The notes under the pieces: generated by a model | What the model was told of the DNA's origin: nothing | What the model saw: the letters and a program-made list of their open reading frames with translations, nothing else | The model's database searches: none | Made by a program: the position numbers and the translations under genes | Shown here: one piece after another, positions 1,508 through 13,111 of the stretch | Numbering within the stretch: the stretch's first letter is position 1 | Layout of the letters: each line of letters opens with the position of its first letter | Assembly (NCBI GenBank): GCA_014163555.1 | Contig: JACJGO010000002.1 | Coordinates: forward strand, 310,001-374,000 | Source: Flavisolibacter longurius | GTDB lineage: Bacteria > Bacteroidota > Bacteroidia > Chitinophagales > Chitinophagaceae | Reading direction: 5' to 3' | Length of the DNA stretch: 64,000 nucleotides

Positions 1508-2167
1508 TTACACTGTTATCAGCTCTTCTTTTAATGCATAGCGCATAAGTTGAAGCATATTCTTTACGCCTGTTTTTTCCATAATTTTTTCACGGAACCT
1601 ATCAATGGTTCGTTTGCTTAAAAACAATGCACTCGCAATTTCTTTGCTGCTTTTACCTTGGCAAACCAGTGTGAGAATCTCTGTTTCTCTTGGTGTAAAC
1701 GTTACCTTTTTAAAACTTTTTGTTTTCGTCTCGCGGATTTGTGAAGTAATAATATGGTTGACGGCAGGTGTATAATATAAATATCCTTTGTGCACAGTTT
1801 TAATGGCATGTTTTAACTCAGACACTTCTGTATCTTTTAAAAGATATCCTTCTGCCCCCGCTTCTAGCATCGCTAATACATAGTTTGTTTGTTCCGAATA
1901 GGATAATGCAATAATTCGTATGGTTGGATATTTCTGTTTTAGGAGGACCGTAGCTTCTATTCCATTCATCACAGGCATTTCTATATCCATCAATACAACA
2001 TGAGGTTGTTGAATGTCTACTGCATCGAGTAAGCTTAGTCCATTGGGCGCTTCACCGATGAATAAAATTCCCTCTTTTTTAAGGCTTTGTAATGCTGTAC
2101 GTACACCACACCGGAAGAAGGCATGGTCATCAGCCAGAAAGACGTGGATAAAAGTGTTTCCGGTCAT
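1508..2167 (-). CDS. NarL/FixJ-type response regulator, orphan
   Basis: This is a two-component response regulator of 219 residues. The N-terminal receiver has the acidic pair D13/D14, the phospho-acceptor D61 in LMDIEMP, the switch Ser89 and Lys111 in LLKD. The C-terminal LuxR-type helix-turn-helix is at about 155-215 (TPRETEIL, SSKEIASALFLSKRTID). No histidine kinase lies next to it, so its partner is elsewhere. It is transcribed divergently from the RHS cluster that starts at 2317, and a dyad lies in the 149-bp gap between them. Its DNA is visibly more A+T-rich than feoB on the left, which hints at a different origin. Whether it controls the RHS cluster is inference from position only. Confidence 0.9.
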   Translation of the reverse strand: MTGNTFIHVFLADDHAFFRCGVRTALQSLKKEGILFIGEAPNGLSLLDAVDIQQPHVVLMDIEMPVMNGIEATVLLKQKYPTIRIIALSYSEQTNYVLAMLEAGAEGYLLKDTEVSELKHAIKTVHKGYLYYTPAVNHIITSQIRETKTKSFKKVTFTPRETEILTLVCQGKSSKEIASALFLSKRTIDRFREKIMEKTGVKNMLQLMRYALKEELITV

Positions 2168-2224
2168 GTGCAGTGGTTTTGGCGGTTGATTACATATAAA
2201 TATAATAAATAATCAGAAGCCGGC

Positions 2225-2268
2225 AATCCGTATAAATACCCACATTTTTATGGGTCTTCATACGGATT
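2225..2268. promoter_or_regulatory. Dyad between divergent response regulator and RHS cluster
   Basis: A perfect 9-bp inverted repeat, AATCCGTAT at 2225-2233 and ATACGGATT at 2260-2268, encloses a second one, ACCCA at 2238-2242 and TGGGT at 2251-2255. It sits about 58 bp upstream of the regulator start and about 48 bp upstream of the ATG at 2317. It could be an operator for the regulator or a leader hairpin. No T-run follows, so it is not a typical terminator. Confidence 0.4.
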
Positions 2269-2316
2269 GACTAACGGTTAAGCAGCTGCTAATTTGCATC
2301 AGCTTATAAATCTGAA

Positions 2317-3744
2317 ATGCCGAAACTAACTGTTCTTCTGTTGATTGCTTTGTTCATTCACTTCATTGTAAATCAGGTGCAGGCACAAGACGGCAGTAGT
2401 TCAGCGCAGCATCATCAGGTAACTGTAAAAACAGTTACAGAAATCAGGAAAAAGGCTAGGAGCATAGAAGAAAAGCTGGAAGTAATGATGAAAAAATATC
2501 TCTCCAAACTCCAGCGGCAAGAACAAAAGATAAAAGCCAAAATCTTGGAAAAGGATTCAGCTTTGGCAAAACAATTATTTGAAGGAATAGAGCAGCAATA
2601 TGAAACCCTTAAACAAACACCGCGCAATCTTTCCAAGTACAACCAGGTTTATTCTCCCCATCTCGATAGTTTGACCACAGCCCTGAATTTTCTGAAAGGT
2701 GGCGGGCTTTCGTCTGCTGATCTCACCAAGTCGCTTTCGCAGTTCAGTGCCTTGCAGGAAAGGCTTGACCAATCAGAAAAGATCCGCGCCTTTCTTTCCG
2801 AGCGCAAGCGCCTGTTGCAGGAGGCCCTTGGCAGGTTGGGAATGATCAAAAACCTCAAAGGTCTTCAAAAACAGGCTTTCTATTATTCAGCACAGATAAG
2901 GGCTTACAGGGAACTATGGGAGGATCCCTCCAAGCTGGAGAAAAAGCTCTTGGAAGTATTATCCCAAACCGAAGCTTTCAAAGACTTTTTCCGCCACAAC
3001 TCCCAACTGGCTTCCCTGTTTGCCCTTCCTGGTGGTAACACCGCCGCGGCTTCACTGGCGGGGCTGCAAACCCGTGCTTCCGTGCAGCAGGCCCTCCAGG
3101 ACCGTTTTGGTTCCGGTCCTCAGGTGCAGCAGCTGGTACAAGAGAACCTGCAGGCAGCCCAAGGGCAACTATCCGAGTTAAAAAACAAGCTTTCGCAGTA
3201 CAGCAATAGCACTTATGGTAACACAGCAGGTGACATTGAAATGCCGGAAGGGTTTACTCCCAATAATCAAAAGGCCAAATCATTTCTGCAGCGCCTGGAG
3301 TATGGCGCCAACATCCAGAGTCAAAAAGCAAATAGCTATTTTCCAACTACTTCTGATCTGGGGATATCATTGGGTTATAAGCTAAACGACAGGAGCGCAA
3401 TTGGTATAGGCGCCTCCTACAAAATAGGTTGGGGCAGAGGGTGGGACCATATCCGCATCACACATGAAGGCGTGGGGCTCAGAAGCTACTTGGATGTAAA
3501 GCTCAAAGGAAGTATCTATCTCTCAGGCGGCTATGAGCAAAATTACCGAACGGCATTTCAAAATATACAACAACTGCGAGAACTGGGCGCCTGGCAGCGC
3601 AGTGGGCTTCTGGGCCTGAGCAAAAAATATCAGGTAAGCAAAAAGATTAAAGGTGATATGAAACTGCTCTGGGATGTCCTGAGCTACCAACAAATCCCTA
3701 AAACACAAGCGGTGCTGTTCCGCATCGGCTATAACCTCAACTAA
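2317..3744 (+). CDS. Exported coiled-coil protein with barrel-like C-terminal domain, first gene of RHS cluster
   Basis: A 475-residue protein of unassigned family. Residues 1-23 form a signal peptide ending in VQAQ. Residues of about 35-240 are charged, heptad-like and rich in K, E, Q and L, suggesting a long coiled coil. A linker rich in A, G and Q follows. Residues of about 340-475 show alternating polar/hydrophobic strands with glycines (IGIGASYKIGWG) and end in FRIGYNLN, the pattern of an outer-membrane beta-barrel C-terminus. It starts 25 bp before the RHS-like gene and leads a five-gene co-directional cluster. An outer-membrane anchor or export partner for the RHS proteins is a reasonable inference. 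The barrel call rests on pattern only. Confidence 0.75.
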   Translation: MPKLTVLLLIALFIHFIVNQVQAQDGSSSAQHHQVTVKTVTEIRKKARSIEEKLEVMMKKYLSKLQRQEQKIKAKILEKDSALAKQLFEGIEQQYETLKQTPRNLSKYNQVYSPHLDSLTTALNFLKGGGLSSADLTKSLSQFSALQERLDQSEKIRAFLSERKRLLQEALGRLGMIKNLKGLQKQAFYYSAQIRAYRELWEDPSKLEKKLLEVLSQTEAFKDFFRHNSQLASLFALPGGNTAAASLAGLQTRASVQQALQDRFGSGPQVQQLVQENLQAAQGQLSELKNKLSQYSNSTYGNTAGDIEMPEGFTPNNQKAKSFLQRLEYGANIQSQKANSYFPTTSDLGISLGYKLNDRSAIGIGASYKIGWGRGWDHIRITHEGVGLRSYLDVKLKGSIYLSGGYEQNYRTAFQNIQQLRELGAWQRSGLLGLSKKYQVSKKIKGDMKLLWDVLSYQQIPKTQAVLFRIGYNLN

Positions 3745-3769
3745 ACTTGATAAAACCACGAACTGTTTT

Positions 3770-6700
3770 ATGAGAACCCTGTTTTTATTGTTTCTTTTTC
3801 TGCTTACGCAACCCGGATGGTCACAGCAGGATGTCTTACAGAAAGCCGATGTACTTCCCCAGTCTCCGGAAGCAGCCGCCTTTGGTAAAAACATCAACAT
3901 ACCGGTCAATTATGTCTCCGGTACTCCTCAGATCGGAATCCCGTTCTGCACTGTAAAAAGTGGCAGTGTCGAAGCCCCTATAGCCATCAGCTACAATGCC
4001 AGCGGCATCCGGGTGGAAGAAACGCCAACTTGGGTAGGCTTGGGATGGAGCTTGAATGCGGGAGGACAAATTACCCGCACCGTCAGGGACAAGCCGGATG
4101 AAAAAGGCCTTTATGGTTACATGATTGCTCCCGCTAACCGGCGGGTGCGCTATGTCGATTCCGCCCATTGCCGTTGCATGTCAAATACTGGTGTAACAGG
4201 GGCCATTGATCAGGATATAGCGAATGGCTTATTAGACTTAGAGCCTGATGAATACAACTTTTCAGTAGCGGGGTACTCTGGAAAGTTTTTTTGGCACCAG
4301 GATTCTGCCAAATTCATCCTGGTGCCTTTTCAAAACATCTGGATCGGTGGTTCATTCGGGAATTTTATGTTGACCCTTCCCAACGGCGTCAAATGTTATT
4401 TTGGCGAAACCAATACAGCAAAAGAAAACCTTCTATCCGGCACCACAGCCAGCTATATTGATGGCGTTTCTTATGCACCAACGGCCATCGATGCCAATTA
4501 TGCCACTTCATGGATGCTGACCACCTTGCAGGACCCGGCCGGAAGGTCCGTTCGGTTCAATTACATTCATGAAGCCATCATTACGTTTGGCAGGGGAGGA
4601 GAAAGATATGGCCAAAGCCTCACAGAATCTTTAAGCTCCATGCGCCGGCAATCCTTTTATAAACAATATATCCAAAAACCGGTTCTTGAAAGCATCAAAG
4701 GTGATAACCTGCATGTTTATTTCAGGAGGTCTTCTCTGCGCCGCCAGGATATGGTTGATTATCAGGATGGCAGCCGCTCTCTCGATACGCTGATCGTTAA
4801 AACACCGGGCAACCAGGAGCTAAAAAGCTTTCTCTTTAAGTACGGCTATTTTATCAGCTCTTTGTATTCAGCAGCCAATATGCTCAACATCAGCATGCAC
4901 GGGGAGGAGGCACGGAAGCGGCTTTATCTTCAATCCATAACAGAAAAAACGAGTACGGACTCGCTTCCGGCCTATGAGTTTACCTATAACGGAACCGAAC
5001 TTCCAAGCCGACTTTCCTCCTCGCAGGATTATTGGGGTTATTACAATGGAAAGACCAATGGACCTTATATGATGCCCCGAAATCCTGGAGCTCCCTTCAA
5101 CATATTCGATCCAGGTGGATACGAGAGGAACAAAATCTTGCCAGGTTATGGATTTAATTTCTCACTGGGATCAGACAGGAGGGTTGATACAGTCTATAGC
5201 CAAGCCAGAATATTGACAAAAATAAAATATCCGACTGGGGGTACCATAGAGTATTCGTATGAGCAAAATAATGCTTCCACCACCTACCTTAATATTTATG
5301 GCGGTGTGGAGCCGCCGGATATGGTAGAGCGGTCTTACACACTTTCGTTGTTATCAAACCCCTTACCGGCACAGCCTCCTTATCCACTTAGTTTTACCGG
5401 CAGTTTTCATATAAACATTCCGGCAACAAAAGTCAGGATTGTGCCGACAATGCCATCTCCTTGTGGCGTGTACAATGACCCAGCCTGTAAGTTTACAATC
5501 AACCTCAGAAGCCTTCCTTCAAACACCCTTTTGCATACCATCACCACCACGCCGGCTGTATCCATGCAGCTTTCTTCTGGTGATTATTTGTTAGAAGTGC
5601 TGGTGAATGGATCTACCAATGATTATCCGCCGAGTTTTAATGTGCAGGTCCAGTGGGGGGAGCGGCTGGATTCATTAAGCTTCCTTGTCGGTGGTGTTCG
5701 CATAAAAAAAATTGTCAGTCGTGATGGGATTAGAGGAACGATTTCCAGGAGCTTTTCTTATAAAGATCCCACAGGTAGGAGCAGTGGTATTTTGGAAGGC
5801 ATTCCTACCTTCAAGGTCCATGAATTAAATAAGCAACTTCAGCCTATTCGTCAGTATTTCGTTTCCAACAGTGTATTGCCATTGTCAGAGGAGGGCAGGA
5901 CCGTCCGCTACGAAAATGTTTCCGAGTTTTTGGATTCGACTGCCTCTTCCCATAAAACCGAATACGCATTCACTTCTGGACTTTCTGAGCCACCAAAATT
6001 TGCAGGAACTTATACTGGTGCTCCTGTAATAAACTGGAATTGGCAACATGGGCTTTTGAAGCGAAAAAAGCAGTTCGAAAAGATAGCGGGGAGTGGATAT
6101 CGTCTACTCACAGATGAACAACATTTTTACCTAGCGTATAATCCATTAATACATCTGCAGGGATTATATGGTCCACAAATCATAAAGTACCAACTGGCCA
6201 ACGAATGGTATCTACCTGATTCCACGTCAACTACCACTTATGCCTACCCGGATGGACAAACGGTAGCGCTGCAGACAGGGGCAAAGACATTTTATAACAA
6301 TCATTTTCTTCCTTTCCTTACCCGCACAAACAACTCAAAAGGGCAGCGAGTTCACAGCAAAATCTGGTATCCCACAGATTTTAATGATGTGCCGGGCTTC
6401 AACGTTCAGGCACTCTACAGCAAGCACATCTGGCAATTGCCCATTAAGCAGGAAACCTCTGTTAACGGAAAGGTCACCGCTGCAAGTGTCACTAAGTATA
6501 GTCTAATGGGCATGCCAATAGAAAGTTATGCCTATGAGAATGCAGTACTGGCTGATACAGCGGTTCATAACAGGAGTACGGTTTTGACAAACGCTTTTAA
6601 ACTCCGCACTTCTCTCCATTATGATGCCTTGTCAAACCCCAAACAAGTCAATAATTACCGGAGCGGTCCGGTAACTTACATCTGGCATAATGAAGTAGAT

Positions 6701-7636
6701 GGCGCACAAACCCTAATTTATAGGCGACCAATAGCCAGTGTAATAAATGCGGATAGCATTTCGGTAGCTTATACTTCGTTTGAGAATGCAAAGGGTAACT
6801 GGGTTTATACAGGTTCTCCAACCACTAACAGCATAGCCATAATGGGTAGTAAAGTGTATTCTCTTAGTACTGGTACTATAGGCAAAGCAGGCCTGAGCAG
6901 CACGGCTACCTATGTTGTTTCCTATTGGAGTCCCTCCCAGCAATCCGTATCTAACACAGCTTCTGTTATTGTCGGTATGACCACTGCAAATGGCTGGACT
7001 TATTATGAACACAAAGTTGTCAATCCTGCCAGTGGCGCGGTAAACGTATCAGGGACTGGTTTGATTGATGAACTGCGGCTCTATCCGGAAAAAGCGCAAA
7101 TGACAACATATAGCTACACTGATCGCAATGAGATGAATGCCCAGTGTGATGCCAACAATAAAATCCTGTACTATGAGTATGATGGATTGAGCAGACTTTC
7201 CCTGGTGCGGGATCCAAACAAAAACATCCTGAAAAAATACTGTTACAACTACGTAGGGCAAGTGGAGAATTGCGGTGGTAGTGTCGCGCCGCAGTGGACT
7301 CTGGTCAACAGTTATTGTGAGCAGACCAGCGACCAAAATACGGGTAACATGGTAATGGTCTACAGCGACTCCAATCCCAATAGTGGATCGTACGGGCAAA
7401 CGCAAAATACAATTGTGCCCAATAGCAGTCAATGCCCCCTTCCTTCTGGATGTAACCTTGTCACCTGCAGCGGACCGGATAAAAAATGCATCAATGGCGT
7501 TTGCCAGACTGGCGTAAAAGTGTGTACAGCAACAACAGGTACGAAGGGAAATTATATTACGACCTACCATTATGAATGGAATGATGGAAGCAGGAGTCCT
7601 GACTATCAAGAAAGTGGACTTTGTTTAATAATGTAA
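3770..7636 (+). CDS. Large exported RHS/YD-repeat-like protein without RHS core
   Basis: A 1288-residue secreted protein with a signal peptide (residues 1-19, cut after GWSQ). The N-terminal part carries the Bacteroidota RHS-companion signature around residues 35-90 (IPVNYVSGTPQIGIP, ISYNASGIRVEE, VGLGWSLNAGG). This region is related to the start of SpvB/RHS shells. YD-type strands occur throughout, with a clear one near 1130-1155 (YYEYDGLSRLSLVRDPN). No RHS core signature is present. The last 80 residues are cysteine-rich, with a CxxxxC-x6-C-x4-C pattern starting at Cys1228, probably disulfide-bonded outside the cell. Spacing is 25 bp from the gene before and 29 bp to the gene after. Role in the cluster, perhaps as a second shell half, is inferred. 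Confidence 0.8.
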   Translation: MRTLFLLFLFLLTQPGWSQQDVLQKADVLPQSPEAAAFGKNINIPVNYVSGTPQIGIPFCTVKSGSVEAPIAISYNASGIRVEETPTWVGLGWSLNAGGQITRTVRDKPDEKGLYGYMIAPANRRVRYVDSAHCRCMSNTGVTGAIDQDIANGLLDLEPDEYNFSVAGYSGKFFWHQDSAKFILVPFQNIWIGGSFGNFMLTLPNGVKCYFGETNTAKENLLSGTTASYIDGVSYAPTAIDANYATSWMLTTLQDPAGRSVRFNYIHEAIITFGRGGERYGQSLTESLSSMRRQSFYKQYIQKPVLESIKGDNLHVYFRRSSLRRQDMVDYQDGSRSLDTLIVKTPGNQELKSFLFKYGYFISSLYSAANMLNISMHGEEARKRLYLQSITEKTSTDSLPAYEFTYNGTELPSRLSSSQDYWGYYNGKTNGPYMMPRNPGAPFNIFDPGGYERNKILPGYGFNFSLGSDRRVDTVYSQARILTKIKYPTGGTIEYSYEQNNASTTYLNIYGGVEPPDMVERSYTLSLLSNPLPAQPPYPLSFTGSFHINIPATKVRIVPTMPSPCGVYNDPACKFTINLRSLPSNTLLHTITTTPAVSMQLSSGDYLLEVLVNGSTNDYPPSFNVQVQWGERLDSLSFLVGGVRIKKIVSRDGIRGTISRSFSYKDPTGRSSGILEGIPTFKVHELNKQLQPIRQYFVSNSVLPLSEEGRTVRYENVSEFLDSTASSHKTEYAFTSGLSEPPKFAGTYTGAPVINWNWQHGLLKRKKQFEKIAGSGYRLLTDEQHFYLAYNPLIHLQGLYGPQIIKYQLANEWYLPDSTSTTTYAYPDGQTVALQTGAKTFYNNHFLPFLTRTNNSKGQRVHSKIWYPTDFNDVPGFNVQALYSKHIWQLPIKQETSVNGKVTAASVTKYSLMGMPIESYAYENAVLADTAVHNRSTVLTNAFKLRTSLHYDALSNPKQVNNYRSGPVTYIWHNEVDGAQTLIYRRPIASVINADSISVAYTSFENAKGNWVYTGSPTTNSIAIMGSKVYSLSTGTIGKAGLSSTATYVVSYWSPSQQSVSNTASVIVGMTTANGWTYYEHKVVNPASGAVNVSGTGLIDELRLYPEKAQMTTYSYTDRNEMNAQCDANNKILYYEYDGLSRLSLVRDPNKNILKKYCYNYVGQVENCGGSVAPQWTLVNSYCEQTSDQNTGNMVMVYSDSNPNSGSYGQTQNTIVPNSSQCPLPSGCNLVTCSGPDKKCINGVCQTGVKVCTATTGTKGNYITTYHYEWNDGSRSPDYQESGLCLIM

Positions 7637-7665
7637 TAGTCGAAACATAAATCACAATTTGGGTT

Positions 7666-8184
7666 ATGAAACTTCTCCTTTTTTCAGTACTCCTCTTTGG
7701 ATTACTTCCAAAAGATTTTTACGCTCTACAAATAAGTGATTTGGAAGGCAAAGCACAAAAATTTAAAGTATACAAAGGAAAAAAAGTGCTGTTGGTGAAC
7801 ATTGCCACCGGAAGTGATAAGGTGACGCAACTCATAGGCCTGAGCCAGTTACAGGACCAGTTCAAGGACAGTTTGGTCGTTATCGCTTTCCCCTCGAATT
7901 CTTTCGGGAATGAACCACGTACTAATACCCAGATAAAACAGTTTTGTGAAACGGTTTACCCGGTCAACTTTCTCCTTGCAGAAAAAGGGGCGGTATTAGG
8001 GAGCGACACACAACCTGTCTTTAACTGGCTTTCTAAAAAAAGCGAAAATAGTATCGGTAGTGCGCAAATAAGGGAAGACTTCCAGAAATTTTTAATTGAT
8101 GGGGAAGGAAACCTTATCGGTGTTTTTGCAGGGAGTGTAGCCCCGATGGACCAAAAAATTATTTCAGCAATTGTCAACTTCTAG
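7666..8184 (+). CDS. Glutathione-peroxidase-fold protein lacking all catalytic residues
   Basis: A 172-residue exported protein with a short hydrophobic N-terminus. It follows glutathione peroxidase along its length: the strand KKVLLVNIAT, the block VVIAFPSNSFGNEP (normally FPCNQFGxxEP), and DFQKFLIDGEGNL (normally WNFxKFLIDxxG). By alignment from memory, the peroxidatic Cys/Sec position is Ser50, the catalytic Gln is Ser79, and the Trp-Asn pair is Glu137-Asp138. Cys94 is the only cysteine left. It should therefore have no peroxidase activity and may act as a binding or structural module. It sits between two RHS genes, 29 and 35 bp away, so it is probably co-expressed. The fold call is firm; the role is unknown. 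Confidence 0.8.
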   Translation: MKLLLFSVLLFGLLPKDFYALQISDLEGKAQKFKVYKGKKVLLVNIATGSDKVTQLIGLSQLQDQFKDSLVVIAFPSNSFGNEPRTNTQIKQFCETVYPVNFLLAEKGAVLGSDTQPVFNWLSKKSENSIGSAQIREDFQKFLIDGEGNLIGVFAGSVAPMDQKIISAIVNF

Positions 8185-8219
8185 TTCAGCACGATTTTAA
8201 AAGCTAAAACTAATTTCTT

Positions 8220-11200
8220 ATGCACCCAAGGCTGTATGCAGGTATCCTGAGTCTTGTTATATGTTTTATTTGTTCATCTGCTTATGCCCAGCGCATTGCG
8301 CCGGCTGCCTATGGGATGGATGTGAAGGTAAATTATGTGCGCACCTGGGAGGTGAAGGTGCCGGAGAGTAATTCCAGCAACCTAACGGTTGCCTCCACGT
8401 TGGACAAGGCTGTAATGACTACCCAGTACCTGGATGGATTGGGTAGGCCTATCCAAACGGTGGTCAAAGGCATTACCCCTTCGGGCAAGGACCTAGTAAC
8501 GCCGGTGGTCTATGACGCCTTTGGGCAGGAAGAAGTCAAATACCTGCCTTTTGCCGCCAACGCTACTGGTGGCAACCTCTCTGTGAGTAATGGTGGATTC
8601 AAGCTCAATCCTTTTCAACAGGACAGTGCTTTTTCTAAAATGCAGTACTCAGGTGAAAGCCATTTTTATTCCCAGGTGTTTTTTGAAGCTTCGCCCTTGG
8701 GTCGTGTGCTTGAAAGTTTTGCCCCCGGTGATAACTGGGCAGGAACCGCCGGACAAACACAGGCAGCTGGTCGTCGTTCGGTCAAAACGTCTTACCTTAT
8801 CAACACGGTGAGTGATTCAGTGCGTATCTGGGTCGCTTCCGCCAACATTTCTACTGCTCCTACTACTTCGGCACGGTACGCAGCGGGTGAGTTGTATAAA
8901 ACCATTACAACCGATGAACACGGAAAGCAGGTTGTGGAATACAAAGACAAAGAAGAAAGAGTTGTTTTAAAAAAAGTGCAATTGGCCACTTCCCCTGGTT
9001 CAGCCCACATAGGCTGGCTCTGTACCTATTATGTTTATGATGATTTGGGGCAGGTTCGCTTTGTGATGCAACCCCAAGCCGTTGCGCTCATGCTTTCAGC
9101 GGGCAATTGGACGATTACCACCACCCAACGCGATGAGCTTTGTTTTTACTATGGCTATGACGGGCGTGGTCGGATGAACATTAAAAAAGTGCCGGGTGCT
9201 GGCGAGGTGCATCTGGTTTATGATGGGCGTGACCGGTTGGTCATGACTCAGGATGCCAATATGCGCAGTACGGGTAAATGGCTTGTCACTATTTATGATG
9301 AACTGAACCGGCCCATCAAAACCGGTCTTTACGCTAACACTTCCACCAGAACCATCCAACAGGCGGCGGCAGATAACTTACCGGCAGCTGCCTACCCTTT
9401 CACCAACAATACGCCGCCTTCCACGGGCTGGGACCTGCTCACCGAAACAGGGTATGACAACTACACAAATTTGCCAGGCGTGTTTAGTGCTAATGCCAGT
9501 ACGTCTAATATAGCATCCGCCTTTAATAACAATTATAATCAGGCACCTGACTATCCGCAACCTTTCAGTCAGTCTTTTCAAACGAAGGGTTTGGTAACCT
9601 GGACTCGGACACGCATTCTGGATAGTACTGGATTTTTGAGCGCGGTAAACTACTACGATGAGCAAGGACGGCTTATTCAGGTGAGAAATCAAAACATACT
9701 AGGCGGCATTGATGAAAAAACAGTGCAATACGGATTTTCCGGCCAAGTGCTGCGTACAATTGAAATAACGCGGACTGGACAAACGATGAGTGTATTTACC
9801 CGCAATAGTTATGATAAACAACTACGCCTAATTAACATCGAGAAAATCCACAGCAGCCCATTCGGAACTTATAAGCCCATTGCCAGGATGGAATACAATG
9901 AACTGGGCCAGTTAAAGAAAAAAGTGCTTGGCTCTAACCTGGATTCGCTGGAATATGAGTACAATATTCGTGGCTGGTTATTGGGAGCCAATCGAGATTA
10001 TGCCAAATCATTAACAAACAATACCCACTATTTCGGTTTTGACCTCGGGTATGATAAAACTTCACTGGCAGCCAATGGCGGCTCTGCTATTGGTTCCTAT
10101 GCAACGGCTAGCTATAATGGCAATATAGCTGGAACGGTATGGAAGTCGAAAGGAGATAATGAAATCCGTAAATATGATTTTGTCTACGATGCCGTCAACC
10201 GTCTTACAAAGGCTGATTTTACGCAATACACAGGTGGGTTTAACAAAACAGCAGGGCTTGATTTTAGTGTCAGGAACATCAGCTATGATGCCAACGGAAA
10301 CATTCTTTCGCAAATGCAAAGGGCATGGAAATTAGGAGGCAGCATTGATATGGACCGTCTACGTTACAATTATCAACCCCAAACTAATAAACTGGCTGCA
10401 GTTGTTGATACGGCCAACGATAACAGTAGTCGATTGGGTGATTTTAAATATGATCCTGTTAGTAAAACAACACAGGATTACGCATATGACGGCAATGGCA
10501 ATCTTACCAGTGATGCCAATAAGAAACTGTCCTCCATTCTGTATAATCATTTGAATCTCCCCAGCCGGGTTCGGGTGAATGGCAAGGGAGTTGTCCGTTA
10601 TATTTATGATGCTTCGGGGAATAAGCTGAAAAAGATCACAACTGACAGTACGGGTGCTTCTGTAGTGGTAAAGACTACCACTTATATTGGAGGTGGTGGT
10701 ACCGTTTATGAGAGTGTGGAGCATACGGCGCTAACCGTGGGTGATTATATCAATAAGTTTCTATTCACCAGTCACGAAGAAGGCCGTATCCGACTGGATT
10801 ATCAGAATTTTAGTTACCCATATGATTATTTTTTGAAGGACCACCTGGGCAATGTCCGTATGGTATTAACCAATGAAGCCAAAACCGATAGTTATCCGGC
10901 AGCAACAATGGAGACAGCTTCAATCAATACAGAAAGTACCTATTACGGAAATATTGCCAATACGCAGTATCCAAAGCCCTCTTGGTATAGTGATCCGCTT
11001 TATACAAGCAATGCGCAAGTGTCACGGCTGCGAAATGCCACCGGCAGTCACAAGGTTGGACAGAATATGCTTCTTAAAGTGATGGCCGGTGACCAGTATA
11101 ATATTAGAGCAACGAGTGGATGGAGCAGTGGCAGTACTGCCACCAATAGCTCCACCAGTGTGCTGAGTGATTTGCTTTCTCTTCTAAGCGGAAGTGCTGC

Positions 11201-12623
11201 AGGACTAAGTGGTGGTAAGGTCACGCAGGCAGAACTACAAAGTAGCAGCAGTGGACTGACCACGGGGCTTTCTTCTTTTCTGTCCTCCCAGACTATTAGT
11301 GGCACGAAGCCAAAAGCCTATATCAATTGGATCCTTTTGGATGAACAGTTTAAGGTGGTACCGGGCAGCAGTGGATTTGAACAGGTGGGAGCCAGCGGCA
11401 CAACCACCATCCACACAAAAGCCGGGCTCACGGTAGCCAAAAGCGGATATTTGTATATTTATACAAGTAACGAGGCCACCAATATTGATGTGTTCTTTGA
11501 CAATTTGCAGGTGACTCATATCCGAGGGCCAATTTTGCAGGAAACGCATTATTATCCGTTCGGGCTTCAAATGGCAGGGATTAGTAATAAAGCCGCTACA
11601 CCATTTGGCATACCCGAGAATAAATATAAATATAATGGTAAAGAAGAGCAGAAGCAGGAGTTTTCTGATGGTAGTGGCCTAGAGTGGCTGGATTATGGTG
11701 CTCGGATGTATGACAATCAGATTGGAAGATGGCTTGTGATTGATCCTTTATCTGATCAGATGAGGCGCCATTCAACATATTGTTATGCATTTAATAACCC
11801 AATCTCATTCACCGACCCCGATGGAATGAGCCCACTTAATGATGATCCCAAAAAACATAGACATTTACATATTGATCAAGTTGCACCAGGTACACAACAA
11901 AATCAAATGCTTCCTCGTCAAGGTGTAAACGGAGAAGCAATGCCAGACTTGGTAGTTTACTCAACTATTATTGGAGCTACAGAGAATAAAGGCGGTCCTA
12001 TAGATGGTTGGCTTACAGTTACCGAATACAATATTATTACTAGAGGGGTATATGGCAAAGATGAAAAAGGAAATACAGTTTGGACAGAGACAAGAACTGT
12101 TACTTCTACTGAAGTTGCCGTTAGTCCGACAGGGGATATTCAAGCACAACCTTCACAAATGGTTCAAGCAATAACTAATTCATTCAAAGTTGAATCAAAA
12201 GAGGGCCTCAACTATCGTGGCGAAGCACTTACGAGCAATTCTGTGAGTGCTACTTTTTTAGAAGGTAAACGCGGCACAGGTGTCGGTCAAATATCTATAT
12301 CTAACAAACATCAATGGCTAATAAATGATGCAGCAAATTACATGCGATCAAACAATAAACAATCTGTTTTAACCAAATTGAAAGATCAACATAAAGCTGC
12401 AGGAAAGATGTGGGTAGCAATTGCAGGTGCCCCACTAACATTAGTAAATCCGGCAACAACAACTTCAGCTATAGTAGCACTTAATAATTTATTGCCTAGT
12501 ATTTATAATCCTAATACTCTAGGAGTAACGGGGAGGTTCTATCAAGATGTAACAAGAATTAATAATGGTTTGACTATCTCACAAATGGACAGAGGTAATT
12601 ATATTCCGAAATCAGTTAAGTAA
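8220..12623 (+). CDS. RHS repeat core protein with variable C-terminal tip (candidate polymorphic toxin)
   Basis: A 1467-residue exported protein (signal peptide 1-24, cut after AYAQ). A DUF6443-type N-terminal domain is marked by [15 protein letters not shown] and KYLPFAA. Many YD repeats follow ([22 protein letters not shown]), then [15 protein letters not shown] and the RHS core [18 protein letters not shown] with [15 protein letters not shown] at about residues 1160-1203. The remaining 264 residues (about 11829-12623) form the tip, which I do not recognise. The tip DNA is visibly more A+T-rich than the core, as is usual for exchanged toxin tips. It contains a hydrophobic stretch near 1397-1425. 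A small lipoprotein gene begins 11 bp after the stop. In known systems the core is cleaved and the tip delivered to a target cell; that is inferred here. Confidence 0.9.
11829..12623 (+). other. Variable C-terminal tip domain of the RHS protein
   Basis: This is the coding segment after the core motif DPDGMSP. It encodes about 264 residues with no toxin signature that I know. It starts with a His-rich linker ([10 protein letters not shown]), then a Thr-rich beta-like part ([15 protein letters not shown]), a helical, lysine-containing part ([15 protein letters not shown]) and a hydrophobic Ala/Thr-rich stretch. Base composition and codon choice become A+T-rich from about 11,590 on, slightly before the domain border. 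Confidence 0.6.
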
Positions 12624-12634
12624 TTCCGGGGCTT

Positions 12635-13111
12635 ATGAAATCTTTTATATTTCTTTTATTTACTTGCCTGCCTATTGTTTTAGGTTGCAAATTTTCGAAA
12701 AATGACGCCATCGAAGATTTTGGTTTTAAAATGAATATAGTGAGATTACAAAAATGTCTACCTATTGTTGAAAGTAATATGAACGTTTCACTGCTTAACG
12801 ACAGTACTATTCTGTATTCATATGGAAGATTGGATACCGGCAGAAACGCCCATCACTTCAGCAAGAGGATTTTATACCGTGACAAGCAGGTGGTGCAAGA
12901 AGAGGATGAGTTTTTCCTACCCACAGCATCGAACAGAACTTCCTATTTTGTAACGGTTAAACATCATTTCGAAAAAGATAGTACATCTGCTACCCTCCAA
13001 CACTATTTTTGGAATGATGCTTTTCGAACGAAATCTTACCTTATTAACTACCCAGAGGCAAAACAATTCTTAGCTAAGAATGGCTTACGCATTTGTAGAG
13101 AAGCGAATTGA
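12635..13111 (+). CDS. Small lipoprotein, candidate immunity protein for the RHS tip
   Basis: A 158-residue protein of no family I recognise. It begins with a lipoprotein signal, a hydrophobic stretch ending in PIVLGC with Cys18 as the lipidation site. The mature part looks like a small mixed beta domain rich in aromatic and basic residues (LYSYGRLDTG, HHFSKRILYRD, LQHYFWNDAF). It lies 11 bp after the RHS gene on the same strand and shares its A+T-rich composition, the usual position of an immunity gene. Envelope location would suit a toxin acting in the periplasm or on the membrane. Immunity is inferred from position, size and lipidation, not from homology. Confidence 0.75.
   Translation: MKSFIFLLFTCLPIVLGCKFSKNDAIEDFGFKMNIVRLQKCLPIVESNMNVSLLNDSTILYSYGRLDTGRNAHHFSKRILYRDKQVVQEEDEFFLPTASNRTSYFVTVKHHFEKDSTSATLQHYFWNDAFRTKSYLINYPEAKQFLAKNGLRICREAN

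Follow-up and report, generated by a model that had tools for sequence, protein, structure and literature searches.

A recurrent RHS gene cluster of Chitinophagaceae that probably presents an exchangeable toxin, aided by a barrel-like membrane protein

Five co-directional genes lie near the start of a 64,000-nucleotide stretch of the Flavisolibacter longurius genome (GCA_014163555.1, contig JACJGO010000002.1, positions 310,001 to 374,000), referred to below as the window. An ORF check placed all five on the forward strand at the positions that a first-pass annotation had assigned to them, with the same intergenic gaps of 25, 29, 35 and 11 bp. The cluster and its upstream region contain the following features.

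1508..2167, reverse strand: response regulator with receiver and LuxR-type HTH domains, divergent from gene 1 (Pfam Response_reg 7.5e-24, GerE 3.8e-16)
2224..2269, no strand: inverted repeat between the regulator and gene 1, 19-nt arms, 89%, spacer 8 nt
2317-3744, forward strand: gene 1, 475 aa, ORF confirmed
2386-3228, forward strand: coiled-coil half of gene 1, aa ~24-304, after the signal peptide
3229-3744, forward strand: predicted beta-barrel-like half of gene 1, aa ~305-475, beta-rich
3770-7636, forward strand: gene 2, 1288 aa, exported shell protein of RHS/YD-like type that lacks an RHS core
7256..7636, forward strand: C-terminal extension of gene 2, class 1, Cys-rich, ending YHYEWNDGS..., start placed by eye behind the final YD motif
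7666-8184, forward strand: gene 3, 172 aa, exported glutathione-peroxidase-fold pseudo-enzyme
8220-12623, forward strand: gene 4, 1467 aa, exported RHS shell protein of the DUF6443 type, with a core and a presumed toxin tip
11550..11828, forward strand: RHS-associated core of gene 4, aa 1111-1203, ending ...FTDPDGM (TIGR03696, 3.5e-15)
11829..12623, forward strand: variable presumed toxin tip of gene 4, 264 aa, GC 0.374, without family
12635-13111, forward strand: gene 5, 158 aa, lipoprotein and presumed immunity protein, without family

By sequence, genes 1-4 have signal-peptide-like N-termini and gene 5 carries the lipobox VLGC, in agreement with the earlier description, and in the compared loci a crude motif script found signal-peptide-like starts on 76/81 gene 1, 65/71 gene 2, 14/16 gene 3 and 63/69 gene 4 proteins. 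The divergent response regulator is a possible regulator of the module, and the inverted repeat upstream of gene 1 a possible candidate operator. The first locus set has relatives of the regulator in five further loci, directly divergent from gene 1 in L007, L060, L061 and L062 and non-adjacent in L064. Promoter and terminator scans gave counts close to the shuffled expectation.

Gene 4 begins, after its signal peptide, with a DUF6443 domain (aa 42-180) and also matches RHS_repeat in Pfam, and the RHS core that the first-pass annotation had recognized is borne out by the TIGR03696 match. The core profile of the gene-4 family aligns with the Tc toxin protein YenC2 (4igl_B) to the last residue of that chain, DPDGM, the motif in which the core of the window protein also ends. 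Beyond this point the protein appears to be exchangeable. The tip was described as A+T-rich, which its GC content confirms (0.374, against 0.46 in the shell of gene 4; gene 5 has 0.358), and no relative of it was found in the 293 other genomes (present in 1/294, its own). Among 70 tips (2415 pairs) only 21 pairs are similar, as expected for a hypervariable tip after a conserved shell; 69 of the 70 entered the alignment, a 45-aa tip having been dropped. Twelve of the 70 belong to short ORFs, made up of core and tip, that follow a full-length gene 4. Some tips of relatives match NucA/B, Ntox10, Ntox44, Tox-JAB1, Tlde1 and several metallopeptidases, and some of the genes that follow them match the immunity families SUKH, Imm27 and Imm33; other next genes match enzyme families (Peptidase_M23 twice, an esterase), and most tips and next genes have no family match, some of the matches being weak or chance-like.

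The check proposed for co-variation of tip and next gene came out in its favour. Among 64 tip/next-gene pairs (2016 comparisons, 63 of the 64 next genes aligned), all five similar next-gene pairs also have similar tips; these five pairs form three groups from seven loci in six genomes, and the window pair has no relatives to compare, gene 5 being without a relative in any other genome searched. In the opposite direction, a next gene is present for both tips in 19 of the 21 similar tip pairs, and the two next genes are similar in 5/19; some of the remaining tip similarities are short linkers. Gene 5 is presumed to be the immunity protein for the gene 4 tip.

The same proteins could be read in another way, with genes 1-4 forming a surface adhesin or a teneurin-like filament for cell-cell recognition and the tips serving as recognition domains. 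The core of gene 4 does match teneurin-like proteins too, the window tip and gene 5 belong to no known family, and Pfam finds DUF5977 in 9/27 members of the gene-2 family, which PMC8286594 lists among the stalk domains of fibrillar adhesin-like proteins. We nevertheless consider this reading quite improbable, given the nuclease, peptidase and other toxin families among the tips of several relatives, the immunity families behind some of them, and the short core-plus-tip ORFs behind full-length genes.

Gene 2 had been described as RHS-like and core-less, which fits what was found: the RHS core is absent, the YD match (15.5 bits) falls barely below its 15.8-bit cut-off, and 15/27 family members match RHS_repeat (Pfam, E 0.01). 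The combination of two YD-type proteins in fixed order with a YenC2-like core end resembles the TcB-TcC pair of Tc toxins, in which case genes 2 and 4 would build one cocoon and dock on a separate translocator. The start of gene 2 looks SpvB-like by eye, but its candidacy as SpvB/TcB was rejected, as Pfam detected SpvB in 0/27 members at E 0.01 and the gene-2 profile retrieved nothing from the PDB at E 0.1. The translocator component TcA (PF18276) is likewise absent from the F. longurius genome; it is present in 3/58 genomes, and in two (G019, G022) of the 12 gene-1 genomes from the first search. What accompanies the two proteins here is instead an exported, barrel-like one, and a Tc-like arrangement seems to us the least probable of the readings weighed.

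Gene 3 matches GSHPx in Pfam (E 4.6e-23), and its family profile matches the solved glutathione peroxidase 6vpd at 4e-28. The catalytic tetrad of glutathione peroxidases consists of Cys/Sec, Gln, Trp and Asn; with columns set from the 6vpd alignment, all four active-site residues are absent in 16/16 gene-3 members. As the first-pass annotation had judged, the predicted product is a pseudo-enzyme and not an active glutathione peroxidase, from which it differs further in being exported and in its pairing with gene 2. Gene 3 is confined to loci with an extended gene 2 (17/38, against 0/24 without extension, p 6e-5; the 17 include L067, where gene 3 is cut at the contig end, and L157, where it precedes gene 2), and its two subfamilies, with nine and seven members, match two classes of extension without exception. 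Similarity in gene 3 follows similarity in the extension (Mantel r 0.70; 0.68 holding gene 1 constant), and for the gene-2 body and gene 3 the Mantel r is 0.11 (p 0.12). Because gene 3 tracks both the presence and the class of the extension, genes 2 and 3 look like another exchangeable end and the partner that belongs to it. The number of cysteines in the extension was tried as an explanation for gene 3 and showed no difference between loci with and without it (Mann-Whitney p 0.89, under an earlier classification with gene 3 in 10/21 extended and 0/16 blunt loci and 25 loci unclassified). The pairing of a dead GPx-fold protein with the gene-2 extension looks to be new here.

Gene 1 has no match above the curated cut-offs of Pfam and NCBIfam; its nine Pfam matches up to E 1 are all below cut-off and do not include FhaC/TpsB or POTRA, PHROGs gave no match up to E 0.1, and neither gene 1 nor the window tip was matched on plasmids. 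Its profile retrieved five weak matches from the PDB, mostly coiled coils (best E 0.065). Residue patterns nevertheless suggest that the second half is barrel-like, with about eight strands counted by eye. Gene-1 copies that share a genome and are 91-92% identical are accompanied by gene-2 proteins with an identity of just 29-31%, which points to a constant platform with exchanged cargo.

The recurrence of the cluster was followed in 80 gene-1 loci from 63 genomes, consisting of the window, all other gene-1 matches of the first search, L078, and 60 loci hand-picked down the ranked list, with high gene-1 scores favoured; L077 (same contig as L060, with equal ORFs) was left out of the counts, and loci were counted raw, common descent being ignored. 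Three of the 80 are truncated. In 65 of the 77 assessable loci co-directional RHS genes lie downstream of gene 1, and gene 2 stands ahead of gene 4 in 59 of the 60 loci that carry both, so that the expected recurrence was found for genes 1, 2 and 4 in that order. In 9/77 loci gene 1 has neither RHS nor tail-fibre-like neighbours, and in 3/77 its only such neighbours are tail-fibre-like; it is therefore not dedicated to RHS toxins. Among the genomes of the family Chitinophagaceae, 115/294 contain gene 1; with strong DUF6443 matches (best E < 1e-15, a cut of our own, in tables compiled by hand from match lists), 95 genomes have both, 20 gene 1 only, 8 DUF6443 only and 171 neither, and with all 138 DUF6443-matching genomes the corresponding numbers are 107, 8, 31 and 148. 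Two genomes, G290 and G022, each encode at least 13 DUF6443 proteins, against two gene 1 copies. Distant gene-1 homologues in another family have RHS genes nearby in three of five loci (three genomes): L193 keeps the full gene order and also has a response-regulator-like gene by eye, in L192 an RHS core gene with a clear score (142 bits) lies immediately before the homologue, and L191 has a weakly scored core end upstream (10 bits).

On this sequence comparison, the window holds one instance of a module that recurs in Chitinophagaceae and is best described as a three-gene frame (genes 1, 2 and 4) with exchangeable slots instead of a fixed five-gene system. The idea of a self-contained five-gene system thus survives in part: the five genes are real as one cluster and the frame recurs, but the set is not fixed, as gene 5 is unique among the genomes searched and the slot between genes 2 and 4 varies, holding gene 3 in just 17/62 gene-2 loci and elsewhere other small exported proteins or none. 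Six of these other slot proteins (111-160 aa) were tried as Spy/CpxP-like chaperones, which neither Pfam nor NCBIfam supported.

How such proteins might leave the cell bears directly on the role of gene 1. No type VI or type IX secretion gene had been seen in the window, which is accurate for the two markers searched: VipB is absent genome-wide, and 0/68 sorting-domain matches fall inside. VipB (PF05943) was found in 0/294 family genomes with an E. coli control that matched, by a model that may not detect the Bacteroidetes type iii sheath. The genome has 68 TIGR04183 sorting-domain matches, 67 of them over cut-off, so a type IX secretion system (T9SS) is probably encoded there and could carry out the export. 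Gene 1 would then be only a structural or outer-membrane assembly factor, in a role like that of PorP/SprF, which are partners of gliding adhesins, and its occurrence beside tail-fibre-like proteins, one of which matches phage tail families, would suit such a part. T9SS export has also been proposed for the TANFOR toxins of Bacteroidetes, near whose genes SprB or sorting-domain genes are enriched (PMC7073777). No TIGR04183 match, however, lies on a gene of either module in the F. longurius genome (contig 7; contig 21, 310001-374000), a T9SS tail is absent from the Pfam matches of 27 gene-2 members and 69 tips, and since gene 4 ends in its exchangeable tip, there is no room at its C-terminus for a fixed sorting domain. 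We regard T9SS export of the RHS proteins as unlikely, though the least so of the alternatives.

The reading that we prefer, at a probability of about 0.58, is that of an RHS polymorphic toxin module that is exported by Sec and brings its own partner in the outer membrane. Its parts can be read from the compared sequences: gene 4 has the RHS shell, the core and an exchangeable tip, with a matching partner gene behind it; gene 1 is an exported protein, part coiled coil and part beta-rich, that is linked to gene 4; and gene 2 is a second exported YD-type protein whose extension co-varies with gene 3. An anchoring or exporting role of gene 1 towards the shell, as suggested earlier, would fit its residue patterns and linkage. 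Against the preferred reading stand the want of library relatives for gene 1, a barrel drawn from residue patterns alone with few strands for a protein pore, the loci where gene 1 occurs alone or only with tail-fibre-like genes, the excess of DUF6443 proteins over gene 1 in some genomes and the strong-DUF6443 genomes that lack it, the export capacity of a likely T9SS, and the small share of similar tip pairs whose next genes are similar. Under the preferred reading, gene 1 would sit in the outer membrane, reach into the periplasm with its coiled coil, and hold the RHS shell or aid its surface exposure; gene 4 would enclose and cleave off its own tip, like YenC2-type cores, and gene 5 would shield the producer cell. 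Gene 2 may be a second shell or an adhesin part, with gene 3 binding, and thereby folding or shielding, its extension, and the module would likely be used against neighbouring bacteria of related strains.

Compared with known systems, the module shares with RHS polymorphic toxins (Rhs/WapA/Tc-C) the YD repeats, the RHS core, the exchangeable tip, the co-varying next gene and the short core-plus-tip ORFs, but differs in its Sec signal peptides, its DUF6443 start, its fixed neighbours (genes 1 and 2) and a family in which the VipB sheath gene was not found. In contact-dependent inhibition (CdiB-CdiA), the gene of an outer-membrane partner comes first, then that of a toxin whose tip varies, then an immunity gene, an order that the module would repeat; gene 1, however, has no POTRA or FhaC match and is linked to RHS proteins, not to filamentous haemagglutinin repeats. 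With TANFOR toxins, as PMC7073777 describes them, it has in common Sec export, a variable C-terminal toxin, downstream immunity and occurrence in Bacteroidetes, but it is built on an RHS shell, and the five proteins gave no TANFOR match in NCBIfam, a library from which the model may be missing. In a literature search with most subscription papers and preprints outside its scope, no paper was found that contains DUF6443 or that joins Chitinophagaceae, Rhs and contact-dependent, and no title or abstract among the matches listed describes the module; RHS repeat, Chitinophaga and toxin meet in one listed paper, PMC11854122. This suggests that the module belongs to the RHS polymorphic toxins as a variant previously undescribed, as far as the search reached.

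We tentatively suggest, at less than even odds, a form of RHS delivery without T6SS or TcA, in which an outer-membrane coiled-coil barrel of Chitinophagaceae would be the platform shared by both YD-shell proteins. Either protein would bring a swappable C-terminal end and a partner for it: the tip would have its immunity protein, and the extension a dead peroxidase in the part of a fold-specific chaperone or plug. Gene 1 would offer a specific candidate partner for the passage of signal-peptide-bearing RHS toxins of Bacteroidota through the outer membrane. Should the gene-2 extension and gene 3 physically interact, the RHS operon would hold a further pair resembling toxin and immunity protein, or cargo and chaperone, with an inactive peroxidase as its basis.

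The five co-directional genes of the window probably form an RHS polymorphic toxin module, judging from their sequences.

Features of the cluster and its upstream flank (genes 1-5 from the ORF list)
1508-2167, - strand: LuxR-type response regulator gene, divergent from gene 1
2224-2269: inverted repeat between the response regulator and gene 1
2317-3744, + strand: gene 1, coiled-coil/barrel-like protein
3770-7636, + strand: gene 2, YD/RHS-like protein lacking the core
7666-8184, + strand: gene 3, glutathione peroxidase fold (GSHPx, 4.6e-23)
8220-12623, + strand: gene 4, RHS protein with variable tip (DUF6443, 3.2e-36; RHS_repeat)
12635-13111, + strand: gene 5, lipoprotein

The first-pass annotation had described a closely spaced run with an RHS core and an A+T-rich tip, and the ORF list, Pfam, NCBIfam and GC content bear this out: the gaps are 25, 29, 35 and 11 bp, the RHS core lies at aa 1111-1203 of gene 4 (3.5e-15, Pfam/NCBIfam), and the tip (GC 0.374) and gene 5 (0.358) are A+T-rich relative to the gene 4 shell (0.46). 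Genes 1, 2 and 5 matched no Pfam or NCBIfam family above the cut-off. Regulators related to that of the window were seen at five further loci of the first set, four of which have the regulator divergent from gene 1.

Counting the window's genome each time, gene 1 has matches in 12/58 genomes of the relatives search, 115/294 Chitinophagaceae and 9/296 genomes phylum-wide, the last comprising six Chitinophagaceae and three members of one other family, in which the alignment covers the barrel half only. For comparison, 80 gene-1 loci from 63 genomes were assembled, three of them too short to assess. Among the remaining 77, co-directional RHS genes follow gene 1 in 65, tail-fibre-like genes only in three, and neither in nine; gene 2 precedes gene 4 in 59 of the 60 loci having both. 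The proposed conservation of the cluster elsewhere thus holds for genes 1, 2 and 4. Three genomes of one genus share a neighbourhood (L065, L127, L128) with a solitary gene 1 near 2124-2435, in which no RHS genes were found near it. The other family is sampled by five gene-1 loci from three genomes: L193 holds, besides gene 1 and a response regulator, a gene 2 and a gene 4 with a slot gene between them, then a small gene and a short ORF made of core and tip; directly upstream of gene 1 lie an RHS core gene in L192 and a weakly scored RHS core end in L191; near gene 1 in L194 and L195 no RHS genes were found.

In the window's own genome a second gene 1, on contig 7, is accompanied by a tail-fibre-like gene and its own genes 2, 3 and 4, in a module running up to the contig end, and the genome's only two DUF6443 matches fall within these two modules. 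Two more RHS-core fragments lie on contig 27 of this genome (G000; 2125-4142, L008), not near gene 1. Over the 294 genomes, gene 1 and strong DUF6443 matches occur together in 95, gene 1 only in 20, DUF6443 only in 8 and neither in 171. The converse association is weaker, DUF6443 matches far outnumbering gene 1 in some genomes (at least 13 versus 2 in each of G290 and G022), so that either some RHS proteins have no gene 1 beside them or a single gene 1 serves more than one.

Across the 80 aligned members, the first half of gene 1 is amphipathic and helical and the second alternating and beta-prone; the final residue is Phe in 43, and an aromatic stands among the last four in 76. Profile searches gave weak matches only, mostly to coiled coils. 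Gene-1 copies within one genome reach 91-92% identity while their gene-2 proteins share 29-31% (L129/L133, L073/L074). Across 43 loci, one per genome, gene-1 identity correlates with that of gene 4 (r 0.54) and not with that of gene 2 (r 0.05), gene 2 versus gene 4 giving r 0.27, with gene-2 identities near saturation (median 27%). Gene 1 therefore looks like a constant platform on which the cargo is exchanged; it would sit in the membrane, and a role as anchor or exporter is plausible. Exported tail-fibre-like proteins encoded directly after gene 1 share the C-terminal motif HLP...IEELTLY and occur without RHS genes in three loci and with them in 10/80 (among others L071, 4129-5061; L007, 3353-4504; L158; L167); that of L007 matches phage tail-spike and virion PHROGs.

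Gene 2 is long and exported, with RHS_repeat in 15/27 members and DUF5977, which PMC8286594 counts among the stalk domains of fibrillar adhesin-like proteins, in 9/27. Its C-terminus takes two forms: in 24 loci it stops at the YD motif (blunt), and in 38 it is extended. Gene 3 accompanies the extended form in 17/38 loci and the blunt form in 0/24 (Fisher p 6e-5), and a gene 4 longer than 1700 aa goes with blunt gene 2 (9/21 versus 2/30). For the 16 complete gene-3 proteins, dividing gene 3 into two clusters yields the identical split, 9 and 7, as dividing the extension. With the extension delimited by motif or taken to be the final 130 aa, the 16 pairs, from 13 genomes of shared descent, give a Mantel r of 0.70 (p 2e-4), or 0.68 once gene-1 identity is removed, against 0.11 (p 0.12) for the gene-2 body and gene 3; gene 1 shows weak correlations too, with r 0.22 for gene 3 and r 0.38 for the extension. 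G000 and a second genome, G025, hold both classes, and every gene 3 there adjoins an extension of its own class. In columns placed by alignment to 6vpd, none of the four residues that we take to be the glutathione peroxidase catalytic tetrad is kept in any gene-3 protein (0/16). The partnership of genes 2 and 3 is well supported by this co-variation, most simply explained by binding of gene 3 to the extension.

The slot holds an exported protein of about 215 aa, Ig-like by eye, beside a blunt gene 2 in L063, L064 (7905-8549), L138 and L182; gene 4 there is 2268-2971 aa long, except in L138, where it stops at the contig end. In L060 (11400-11732), L129, L155 and L168 the slot protein is exported, of 111-115 aa and helical by eye, and gene 2 is extended (YHYEW-type); two of these proteins, when tried, matched no Pfam or NCBIfam family.

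From the core end, 70 tips were taken, 64 of them with a close downstream gene. Similar next genes occur in five of the 2016 pairs, forming three groups (L068/L172/L181, from three genomes; L072/L186; L137/L152), and all five pairs also share similar tips, in agreement with the expected co-variation of tip and downstream gene. Similar tips make up 21 pairs, 19 with next genes on both sides, of which 14 lack a similar next gene, several being similar over the linker only. A minority of 69 tips matched Pfam at E 0.01, to toxin or peptidase families, some likely by chance; a few of 63 next genes matched immunity-type families, and some matched enzyme families. By a motif heuristic, the 64 next-gene N-termini carry a lipobox in 11, another hydrophobic stretch in 32 and neither in 21, so the lipoprotein is the case of the window locus and not the rule. 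The window's tip and gene 5 have no match among 293 other Chitinophagaceae genomes. Tips on ORFs shorter than 800 aa number 14/70; 12 of these, an RHS core end with a different tip, stand behind a full-length gene 4 (including L139, L157, L173, L175, L181, L185, L146, L135, L069 and L184), 11 of them, all except L146_08, with a close next gene, and those of L143 and L179, with no full-length gene 4 upstream, resemble pieces of broken genes. Gene 4 is likely a toxin. Its family profile aligns with another Rhs protein, with teneurin-like cores and with YenC2 (4igl_B), through that chain's last residue at DPDGM, the same ending as the core of the window's gene 4. We take the YenC2 chain end to be the cleavage point; the homology suggests that gene 4 may likewise release its tip within the shell.

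As to delivery, VipB was found in 0/294 Chitinophagaceae genomes, in a search with a positive control in E. coli that may miss the Bacteroidetes type iii sheath, and TcA was not found in the window's genome. The view that the window lacks type IX genes stands as far as sorting domains go: none of the genome's 68 matches lies inside the window or on contig 7, and the Pfam matches of the tips and of gene 2 include none. Among published Bacteroidetes classes, the nearest that we found is the TANFOR toxins (PMC7073777); for Bacteroidetes, a polymorphic toxin review lists TcdB/TcaC plus other routes (PMC3482391). New in the module are gene 1 as a recurrent partner, a second YD protein whose end is swappable, and a dead peroxidase matched to that end.
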